From Streptomyces klenkii (GTDB lineage Bacteria > Actinomycetota > Actinomycetes > Streptomycetales > Streptomycetaceae): a stretch of DNA of 64,000 nt. Shown piece by piece: positions 10,442 to 12,892 of this stretch. The notes below the pieces were generated by a model. It had not been told where the DNA came from and ran no database searches. It was given only the letters and a program-made list of their open reading frames with translations. Made by a program: the position numbers and the translations under genes. Numbering within the stretch: position 1 is the stretch's first letter; each line of letters opens with the position of its first letter. The stretch covers positions 124,001-188,000 of the forward strand of contig NZ_RBAM01000007.1 of the NCBI RefSeq assembly GCF_003626645.1, in the 5' to 3' direction.

Positions 10442-10523
10442 GGCGGTGTGCCCGAGTGGCCAATGGGAGCGGACTGTAAATCCGTCGGCTTAGCCTACCC
10501 AGGTTCGAATCCTGGCGCCGCCA
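10442..10523 (+). tRNA. tRNA-Tyr (GTA)
   Basis: Acceptor arm GGCGGTG pairs with CGCCGCC and A is the discriminator. The anticodon stem GCGGA/TCCGT surrounds loop CTGTAAA (anticodon GTA), a long class II variable arm follows, and the T arm is CCAGGTTCGAATCCTGG. The CCA end is not encoded. Confidence 0.96.
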
Positions 10524-10532
10524 CGGAATGAG

Positions 10533-10605: not shown

Positions 10606-11268
10606 TCACTCCTCCGCCGCGGCCTTCACCGCCTCCGTCACCGGCGTGTCCCCGCCGATCAGCTCCAGCGTCCGCCCCGCCGTCCCCGGCTCGTCCAGCA
10701 GCGCCACGAGGACCGCCGCGACGTCGTCCCGGGTCACCTCGCCCCGCCCCGTGGACTGCCCGAGCGCCACCCGGCCCGTGCCGGCGTCGTCCGTGAGCCG
10801 CCCCGGCCGCAGGATCGTCCAGTCCAGGCCGGCCCGCGCCCGGACGTCCGCGTCCGCCGCGCCCTTCGCGCGCAGGTACGCGGCGAAGACCGGATCGGTG
10901 CCCTCCGGGGGCTCGCGGTCGGCGCCCATGGAGGAGACCACGAGGAAGCGGCGGACGCCGGCCGCCTCGGCCGCGTCGGCGAAGAGGGAGGCCGCCCCGC
11001 GGTCCACGGAGTCCTTGCGGTCGATGCCGCTGCCCGGCCCCGCGCCGGCCGCGAAGACGGCGGCGTCGGCCGACTCCAGATGCTTCACCAGATCCGCCAC
11101 GGAGGCCGACTCCAGGTCGCACACGACCGGTTCGGCACCGGCCGCCAGGAGGGCGCCGGCCTGTTCCGGCCTGCGGATGACGCCCGCGATCTCGTCCCCG
11201 CGCGCGGAGAGCAGCCGCTCCAGCCGCAGCGCGATCTGACCATGTCCACCAGCGATGACAATGCGCAT
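10606..11268 (-). CDS. NAD(P)-binding SDR-like oxidoreductase
   Basis: A 220-residue Rossmann-fold protein of the atypical short-chain dehydrogenase type (NmrA/YwnB-like, NAD(P)H-binding). The dinucleotide motif GGHGQIA is at residues 7-13, followed by the basic IRRP that favours NADP(H). VSSMGAD (about residue 112) holds the conserved serine region, and LRPGRLTDD is the usual substrate-side motif. No Tyr-x3-Lys catalytic pair in the classical spacing is evident, as in other atypical members. The ATG at 11268 fits the family start. Substrate unknown. It ends near the tRNA-Tyr terminator, convergent with the tRNA. Confidence 0.82.
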   Translation of the reverse strand: MRIVIAGGHGQIALRLERLLSARGDEIAGVIRRPEQAGALLAAGAEPVVCDLESASVADLVKHLESADAAVFAAGAGPGSGIDRKDSVDRGAASLFADAAEAAGVRRFLVVSSMGADREPPEGTDPVFAAYLRAKGAADADVRARAGLDWTILRPGRLTDDAGTGRVALGQSTGRGEVTRDDVAAVLVALLDEPGTAGRTLELIGGDTPVTEAVKAAAEE

Positions 11269-11336: not shown

Positions 11337-12611
11337 TCAGGACGGCTCGCCGCCGCCGCGCGAGGACTGCCGGGGCAGCTCCAGGGCCGCGGCGGCCGAG
11401 CCGTCGCAGTACTCCCGCACCGCGCTCGTACGGGCCACGACGCGGCCCTTGTGCACCACGAGGCGGCTGTAGGCCATCGACAGCACGCCCTCGACGCGCT
11501 CGCCCCGTACGGCCAGGAGCTCGGCCGGGAAGCCCGCCTCCACCCGCACCCGCGGCAGCCCCATGGCCGCCCGGGCCCACCCGCTGACCGCCTCGTACGC
11601 CTCCTCGGGCCGCAGCTCGCCGTGCGAGGCCAGCAGGTACGCGGCCTCCAGGGGATCGCCGCGCCCGACCGGATTGGCCGCGTCGCGCAGGGCGCCGCTG
11701 CCGGCCGCCACCCGCACCCCCGCCGCCCGCAGCAGCCGCACCGGGGCGCAGCGCGAGACGCGGGCGCCGCGCTGCTCCAGCGTCCCGCAGTCCCCCTGCG
11801 GCAGGCAGACGACGGTCACGCCGGCCGCGGACAGCTGCTCGGCGGCGCGCACGGCCAGGTCGCGGGGGAGGCGGGCGAGGCCGCCGCAGGGGCCGAGGGT
11901 GACGCGGGGGCGCAAGCCGCCGGCCATGGCGGCCAGCCGGGCGAGCCGGGCCGGGTCGGAGCCGTCGGTGTGCAGGTCGACGGGGCAGCCGTGGGCGGCG
12001 GCCAGGTCGAGGGCGGCCTCGGCGAAGCCGGCGGGGTCGGGGTCGAGGTCGGGGCAGCCGCCGACGGCCGCGCCCATCTTCACGGCGTCCCGCAGCTGGG
12101 CCAGCCCGTCGGCCCCGGCGGCGCCGGTGAGCAGCCGGGGCACGGCGACGGCGGTGAGGTCGGTGAGCCCGCGCAGGGCCCGCCGGGCCTGGAGCACGGC
12201 CTCCAGCGAGCGCAGCCCCTGCACGTCGCCGATGCGCACGTGGCAGCGCAGGGCGGTGGCCCCGTGCCCGAGCTGGAGCAGCGCGGCCTCGGTGGCGCGC
12301 CGCTGGACGTCCTCCGCGGCGTACGAGACGGGTTCGTCGGACTCGGCGGTGAGCGCGGTGGCGCCGTGCGCGTGCGGCTCGGCGGGCGCGGGCAGCAGCA
12401 GATAGCCGCTGAGGTCCACGCGCGGACCGGGCGCGAGGCTGCCGGCGGTGCCCACCGCCTCGATGCGGCCGCCGCTCAGCCGCACGTCCACGGTGCGGCC
12501 GTCGGCGAGGCGGGCGCCGCCGAGCACGAGGGCGCCGTCGCCGGGCGCGGCGGCGGGCCGGGGAGCCTCGCCCCCGGGGTTCGCCGGGGGCTGCGGCTGG
12601 CTGTCGGGCAT
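11337..12611 (-). CDS. Cytosine-deaminase-like amidohydrolase lacking key catalytic residues
   Basis: A 424-residue amidohydrolase-superfamily protein most like cytosine deaminase (CodA). After a Pro-rich N-terminus of about 25 residues come the small beta-domain (DGALVLGGARLADGR), the metal motif HxH (H80, H82) and a third histidine H214 in VDLHTDGSD. My by-eye alignment to E. coli CodA puts Gly where the catalytic Glu217 should be. The VTASH histidine is replaced in VTLGPCGG, and the metal-binding Asp313 position reads AGSGALRD. The protein may therefore be inactive or have altered chemistry. The ATG at 12611 follows CGGAGGAGCGCG; the longer frame to 12812 is not supported. Confidence 0.75.
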   Translation of the reverse strand: MPDSQPQPPANPGGEAPRPAAAPGDGALVLGGARLADGRTVDVRLSGGRIEAVGTAGSLAPGPRVDLSGYLLLPAPAEPHAHGATALTAESDEPVSYAAEDVQRRATEAALLQLGHGATALRCHVRIGDVQGLRSLEAVLQARRALRGLTDLTAVAVPRLLTGAAGADGLAQLRDAVKMGAAVGGCPDLDPDPAGFAEAALDLAAAHGCPVDLHTDGSDPARLARLAAMAGGLRPRVTLGPCGGLARLPRDLAVRAAEQLSAAGVTVVCLPQGDCGTLEQRGARVSRCAPVRLLRAAGVRVAAGSGALRDAANPVGRGDPLEAAYLLASHGELRPEEAYEAVSGWARAAMGLPRVRVEAGFPAELLAVRGERVEGVLSMAYSRLVVHKGRVVARTSAVREYCDGSAAAALELPRQSSRGGGEPS

Positions 12612-12764
12612 CGCGCTCCTCCGGGGGCCGGGGCGTGCATGATCACGCAGCAGGTCCGAGCGTAGGGCGCGGCAGGAACGGCTTCGAGCAAGCGACGAAT
12701 AGTCGTACTGGTGTGGTGCGAGAAGGCTTCCGTGGCGCCGTCGCGGGCGCCGTCCGGATACGGA

Positions 12765-12805: not shown

Positions 12806-12878
12806 GCCCCAATAGCTCAGTCGGCAGAGCGTCTCCATGGTAAGGAGAAGGTCAACGGTTCGATTCCGTTTTGGGGCT
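12806..12878 (+). tRNA. tRNA-Thr (GGT)
   Basis: Acceptor GCCCCAA pairs with TTGGGGC, with discriminator T. Anticodon stem CTCC/GGAG closes loop ATGGTAA, giving anticodon GGT. D arm AGCTCAGTCGGCAGAGC and T arm ACGGTTCGATTCCGT are normal. CCA is not encoded. Confidence 0.95.
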
Positions 12879-12892
12879 CTGGTGTGAGAGGT

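Follow-up and report, generated by a model that had tools for sequence, protein, structure and literature searches.

An amidohydrolase-like protein of Streptomyces that keeps three metal-binding histidines of cytosine deaminase and has lost other catalytic residues

What becomes of an amidohydrolase when residues essential to its parent's chemistry are replaced? We describe an amidohydrolase-like protein encoded in a window of 64,000 nucleotides from Streptomyces klenkii (contig NZ_RBAM01000007.1, positions 124,001 to 188,000 of the forward strand; the window is the whole stretch of DNA that was analysed). Compared with E. coli cytosine deaminase, CodA, it retains three histidine metal ligands and lacks a glutamate, a histidine and an aspartate of the active site. 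Catalytic residues are lost in this way throughout a maintained orthologous clade, which is the sense in which we use the word pseudoenzyme. Since key residues have gone, three histidines are kept and a constant cysteine has been gained, the protein has probably been maintained for a new role other than deamination. As far as sequence allows a judgement, the balance tips slightly towards a maintained, metal-holding pseudoenzyme that would serve a binding or regulatory role and would not be a deaminase.

The gene, recognized by its open frame and by matches in Pfam, NCBIfam and the PDB, occupies positions 11337..12611 of the window and encodes 424 amino acids plus a stop. The first-pass annotation had given these limits and named no strand; the limits stand, and the gene lies on the minus strand, with its ATG at 12611-12609 and its stop codon at 11339-11337. 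That annotation had also described an intact frame behind a ribosome-binding site. Both are borne out: the 424-aa frame is open, and GGAGGAG (12616..12622, minus strand), read from the sequence, lies four bases ahead of the ATG. Among 74 aligned upstream regions, that of the window included, GGAGCGCGATG next to the start is more than 90% conserved at each base. A second upstream element, ACCACACCAGTACGACTATT (12698..12717, minus strand), has most of its bases more than 90% identical in 74 aligned upstream regions, and its conservation marks it as a possible promoter or operator. The plus strand carries a 404-aa open frame over the same bases, which we think is a shadow of the high G+C content. 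The source genome measures 8.23 Mb.

To which family does the protein belong? Pfam Amidohydro_3 matches residues 168-392 at 49.9 bits, above its cut-off of 29.7. The best NCBIfam model, PRK05985 amidohydrolase, aligns its positions 92-394 (of 398) with residues 97-398, but at 151.7 bits the match falls far below the subfamily cut-off of 408. With phmmer, the window sequence alone finds 6nbo (E = 8.6e-15) and CodA (1k6w, E = 3.1e-8) in the PDB; with a profile of 39 orthologues these values become 1e-20 and 2.2e-17. Every one of the 13 PDB sequences found at E ≤ 0.01 is either an AtzC-like protein or a cytosine deaminase. Judged by these scores, the homology to CodA and AtzC is beyond chance, at an identity to CodA of 23%. 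The nearest named relatives are those of S. roseoverticillatus (96%) and S. hiroshimensis (95%). A profile search of the window's own genome (E ≤ 1e-10) for other CodA-like proteins gave no full-length match, only a 79-position piece, and two scans of viral contigs, meant to find divergent rows, yielded a single partial locus and no relative. AlphaFold models were poor, with a mean pLDDT of 47.2 from 39 rows and of 50.8 (pTM 0.49) from 80 rows, we think because the input consisted of close orthologues only. Against the PDB the 80-row model placed 6nbo, cytosine deaminases and AtzC at the top, at TM-scores of 0.32-0.36 and an rmsd of 17-19 Å, and is therefore uninformative on the geometry of the active site.

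Which active-site residues remain? We aligned CodA of E. coli MG1655 with the orthologues and canonical relatives by one profile. The first-pass annotation had used a manual alignment, from which it reported the HxH pair and H214 as kept and Glu217, the VTxSH histidine and Asp313 as lost; the profile alignment returned the same kept and lost residues. CodA H61 and H63 correspond to H80 and H82 of the H80-A81-H82 motif on β1 (12366..12374), and CodA H214 to H214 on β5 (11970..11972). The acid/base Glu217 of CodA is replaced by G217 (11961..11963), the water-handling His246 by P241 (11889..11891) and the metal-binding Asp313 of β8 by G306 (11694..11696), all of these codons lying on the minus strand. 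Four further CodA residues, on which that annotation was silent, have changed: Q156 to R159, F154 to V157, D314 to A307 and W319 to A312. Of these, Q156, D314 (Asn304 in AtzC) and W319 are substrate residues.

Are these substitutions general? The joint profile matched 216 stretches (loci L009-L222), 182 of them distinct and at least 300 aa long. We took as the clade the 134 sequences, the window protein included, that score above 300 bits against the orthologue profile, and as the outgroup the other 48, CodA included; selected by that cut, the clade is therefore a defined one and no blind sample. Its 134 distinct members share the substitutions that had been noted in one protein: glutamate, histidine and aspartate are lost jointly in 134/134, while an acid, the histidine and Asp or Asn are kept jointly in 47/48 of the outgroup. 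Each of the histidines at 80, 82 and 214 is present in 134/134, even in L160-L162, whose identity to the window protein is just 45-47%. At position 217 the clade has Gly in 84 sequences, Ala in 47, Leu in two and Ser in one; at 241, Pro in 133 and Ser in one; and at 306, Gly in 134/134. The Q156 place is taken by Arg in 126/134, the D314 place by Ala in 128/134 and the W319 place by Ala, Ser or Gly in 122/134. The outgroup has Glu in 36, Asp in 11 and Phe in one at the E217 place, His in 48/48 at the H246 place, Asp in 43 and Asn in five at the D313 place, and His214 in 47/48. Two outgroup rows deviate: L145 has Phe at 217, and L215 has Leu at 214. Four loci (L143, L175, L176 and L177) combine Asn at the Asp313 place with Asp at the Glu217 place and keep His246.

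One divergent clade member, L159, stands outside the 134, its match being split in two. It reads PHTH, DLHAD, LPQSGRC and AAGSGALRD, with no VTxSH motif visible, and so agrees with the clade. In the genus of the family to which it belongs (L159-L162), the β5 and β6 active-site motifs are eroded further; HxH, the β5 histidine and the tail stay.

Has the clade gained residues as well? At the end of β7 there is a new cysteine, C275 (11787..11789, minus strand), within LPQ-x(2,3)-C. The motif LP[QA]-x(2,3)-C is present in 133/134 clade members, the remaining one reading MPQGGC, and a cysteine near this place occurs in 1/48 outgroup rows. We consider C275 a candidate fourth metal ligand. It aligns with CodA I280, between V278 and L282, two residues named where the AtzC paper compares the active sites of CodA and AtzC (PMC4577212). 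In the loop after β4, position 188 (Asp in the window protein) is acidic in 132/134 clade members and in 0/48 of the outgroup, where His is commonest; the most divergent genus departs from this, with Gly in L161, Thr in L162 and Ala in L159. S305 is found in 131/134 members. H387 and SAVRE (396-400) are constant in the 22 clade representatives, and in most rows displayed PRQ follows SAVRE at the C-terminus. Cys186 and Cys242 were considered as newly gained metal ligands and set aside, since 38% and 52%, respectively, of the 48 outgroup sequences also have Cys there. The first-pass annotation had held that other acidic or histidine residues in the active site would refute its reading. Asp188 and C275, the latter in the pocket region, are candidates for such a part, and both AlphaFold models were too poor to place them.

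Do the three losses carry equal weight? AtzC has His219 at the E217 place, where it is dispensable: according to Table 2 of the AtzC paper, the mutant H219A is active on ammelide (kcat 16.8 versus 26.2 per s), as is D303A, altered at the D313 place (35.8 versus 26.2 per s), and H249A, altered at the H246 place, is folded with activity not detectable (PMC4577212). Because H249A alone of these three lost activity in that table, the case for inactivity rests mainly on the change of H246 to Pro, and it is owing to this change that the clade is most likely unable to carry out the parent hydrolysis. The activity of D303A means that three histidines can serve without the aspartate; presumably it is these three that hold the metal in that mutant. 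The earlier suggestion of a maintained pseudoenzyme, or of an enzyme with new chemistry, thus gains from losses common to 134/134 members and from purifying selection, but its three losses prove unequal, H246 to Pro weighing most.

How has the gene evolved? A maximum-likelihood tree was built from 22 clade representatives and 48 outgroup rows, 70 in all, and drawn with a midpoint root. A branch supported at 100/100 separates the clade, as a monophyletic group, from everything else, and the stem of the clade measures 0.83 changes per column. With CodA-like rows as the outgroup, the clade falls inside canonical actinobacterial homologues. Two other genera of the family, g2 and g5, were considered as intermediates at the same locus and rejected. 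Their loci, L169-L173, have no marker genes alongside, except for a distant MFS match in L173, and their homologues retain His246 and Asp313 and have Asp where CodA has Glu217 (DLHLDD or similar).

Pairwise dN/dS, computed for 11 pairs, is 0.16-0.38. This is comparable with maoC1 and maoC2 and above htpX; strong codon bias probably makes dS an underestimate and dN/dS an overestimate. By this comparison of coding sequences, the gene is under purifying selection. Where does the constraint fall? Among the 22 clade representatives the β-sandwich is more conserved than the barrel (AUC 0.64, p = 4.3e-5), and so it is among 13 divergent clade members (AUC 0.66, p = 1.8e-6). The barrel is the more conserved part in the near canonical set (17 rows; AUC 0.39, p = 0.0013), in the CodA-like set (12 rows; AUC 0.32, p = 5e-7) and in all canonical representatives (36 rows; AUC 0.42, p = 0.023). 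Within 117 Streptomyces-like sequences sandwich and barrel do not differ significantly (p = 0.12). Conservation of the active-site shell still exceeds that of the average column, with a ratio of 0.69 in the clade versus 0.45 and 0.54 in two canonical sets. Read from these columns, constraint in the clade has moved from the barrel to the β-sandwich and the C-terminal tail.

The gene's position is conserved: it sits between tRNA-Thr (12806-12879), which is divergent from it, and the gene for an NAD(P)H-binding, NmrA-like protein (10606..11268, minus strand; Pfam NAD_binding_10, 150.2 bits). The latter is next downstream on the same strand and possibly a co-transcribed partner. It runs in the same direction in 80/80 Streptomyces loci, and the alignment gap spans 28 to 372 bases in 74 of these loci and 479 to 1987 bases in the other six; in the stretches fetched for loci of other genera (L149-L157, L159-L163) nmrA was not found. 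Both maoC1 and maoC2 are present in 79/80 Streptomyces stretches. Between yajQ and nmrA lies tRNA-Tyr (10442-10524). In L090 and L073, yajQ is about 3 kb further off, as if elements had integrated beside tRNA-Tyr; SLP1 of S. coelicolor uses a tRNA-Tyr. In S. coelicolor this locus may bear the numbers SCO4632-SCO4635.

How widespread is the gene? A match (E ≤ 1e-15) was obtained in 289/295 Streptomyces genomes. Four of the six without one are assemblies of 790 to 1420 contigs; of the others, G167 has no match for maoC1 either, and G179 reads N beside maoC1. G179, a two-contig genome, was considered as a demonstration that the gene is dispensable and is unusable for that reason. Locus L237 has a long run of N adjoining maoC1, and the ARAGORN call of a tRNA-Ser inside its maoC1 is probably false. 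G291, a Streptomyces genome, has both the orthologue and a homologue of canonical appearance (L174). Across the family 116/121 genomes match (E ≤ 1e-20), some in pieces, and five of the 116 (G295, G311, G313, G321 and G329) have only a distant, non-syntenic, canonical-looking homologue. Outside the family, 1/15 genomes of the order matches, weakly (E = 8.9e-34). At class level 31/197 genomes give a match, with scores above 300 bits confined to the 16 that belong to the same genus. A genome can lack the gene: in G308, of another genus of the family (locus L238), the order yajQ, tRNA-Tyr, nmrA, tRNA-Thr, tRNA-Met is preserved, and nmrA and tRNA-Thr have no amidohydrolase-like gene between them. 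In loci L239-L242, which come from g5, g2 and a neighbouring family, the maoC genes and the two tRNAs are present; the 12 kb covered contain no amidohydrolase-like gene.

Could the protein be an ordinary amidohydrolase whose apparent losses reflect an alignment out of register? The low identity to CodA and the poor structure models leave room for such an error. However, canonical homologues of about 40% identity align in register, pairing TDET with TDG, ASHC with GPC and GGDN with GSGA with the neighbouring residues kept, and no clade member has a histidine at the H246 place or an acid at the D313 place (0/134). We regard misalignment as very improbable, and decay into a pseudogene as scarcely credible. 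The loss of key residues and the empty place in G308 would suit decay, but the listed matches in the genus are open frames, bar twelve rows with one TGA. The eight of those twelve that were inspected have open frames of 428-488 aa, and the TGA therefore falls at the upstream edge of the match. The low dN/dS, the residues invariant across genera and the conservation of the upstream element and ribosome-binding site likewise speak against decay.

Might the protein still be an enzyme? The three histidines, with or without C275, would then coordinate a metal, and protons would be shuttled by Asp188 or a different newly acquired residue of the pocket, in place of His246 and Glu217, on some other substrate. 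A bare scaffold needs no three histidines; their retention, like the near-constant C275 motif, fits an active enzyme too. So do the acid gained at position 188, S305, R159 (in 126/134), an active-site shell conserved above the rest and, in the AtzC mutant table, the tolerance of losses equivalent to E217 and D313. Against this, the equivalent of H246 is indispensable in that same table and is Pro in 133/134 clade members; Q156, D314 and W319 have all been replaced; constraint has shifted off the barrel; and the most divergent genus is without Asp188, its R159 and its β6 GPC motif eroding. On the sequences at hand a rebuilt active site is a real but doubtful possibility. We think it rather unlikely that the ligands were simply swapped, C275 having replaced both the lost water-handling histidine and the metal aspartate so that a His3-Asp site became a closed His3-Cys site in a metal or redox regulator or a metal-thiolate enzyme. 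Were that so, it would be a clear example of a catalytic metal site repurposed.

How, then, might the maintained pseudoenzyme that we favour operate? It would have arisen a single time, in the ancestry of most Streptomycetaceae, and its forebear would be a mononuclear metal amidohydrolase of the CodA/AtzC type. Its three histidines would still bind Zn or Fe, in a site perhaps closed by C275, and hydrolysis of heterocycles would be absent. The folded protein would act by binding or regulation, its sandwich face and RTSAVRE(Y/F) tail docking a partner; that this partner is the NmrA-like protein encoded next to it is guesswork. The metal site might stabilize the fold, or it might sense a metal or the redox state.

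How does the protein compare with systems already described? The canonical Actinomycetota amidohydrolases (L135-L142, L174 and L191-L197) are homologous over their whole length, form the nearest branches of the tree and share with the clade motifs resembling PHxH, DLH, RxHV, GGxP and RDxxxPxGRxD. Unlike the clade, they keep Glu217, His246 and Asp313, and none has the cysteine of LPQ-x(2,3)-C. Those of their rows that were displayed lack the RTSAVRE..PRQ tail, although L174 reads RTSVVRE. With CodA and AtzC, mononuclear amidohydrolases of subtype III, the clade shares a fold class, judged by sequence, and three metal histidines, whereas the remaining catalytic and substrate residues that were checked are replaced in the window protein. 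A label of amidohydrolase or cytosine deaminase taken from homology alone is thus likely to mislead for this clade. The protein is a candidate for a free-standing bacterial pseudoenzyme, present in nearly all examined genomes of a genus of great practical importance. Because sequenced relatives flank the transition, they allow a side-by-side study of how catalysis was lost, the metal site retained and a new conserved surface gained.

Amidohydrolase-fold proteins without the activity of their parents are already known. What appears to be new is a free-standing, Streptomyces-wide protein that keeps three metal histidines with the other active-site residues replaced; among the papers listed by open-access searches, none was on this Streptomyces clade. 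The CRMP/DPYSL proteins, known from animals, belong to another branch of the amidohydrolase superfamily. They are relatives of dihydropyrimidinase without that activity and, like the clade described here, are maintained in the amidohydrolase fold with essential residues of the parent gone. By the account in PMC4051505, CRMP-4 keeps two of six metal residues; our clade keeps the three histidines of a mononuclear site. The dihydroorotase-like domain of the fungal CAD of Chaetomium (5NNL) is described in PMC12524618 as inactive and was solved without metal. That domain is part of a fusion protein, whereas the Streptomyces protein is bacterial, stands free and retains its three histidines.
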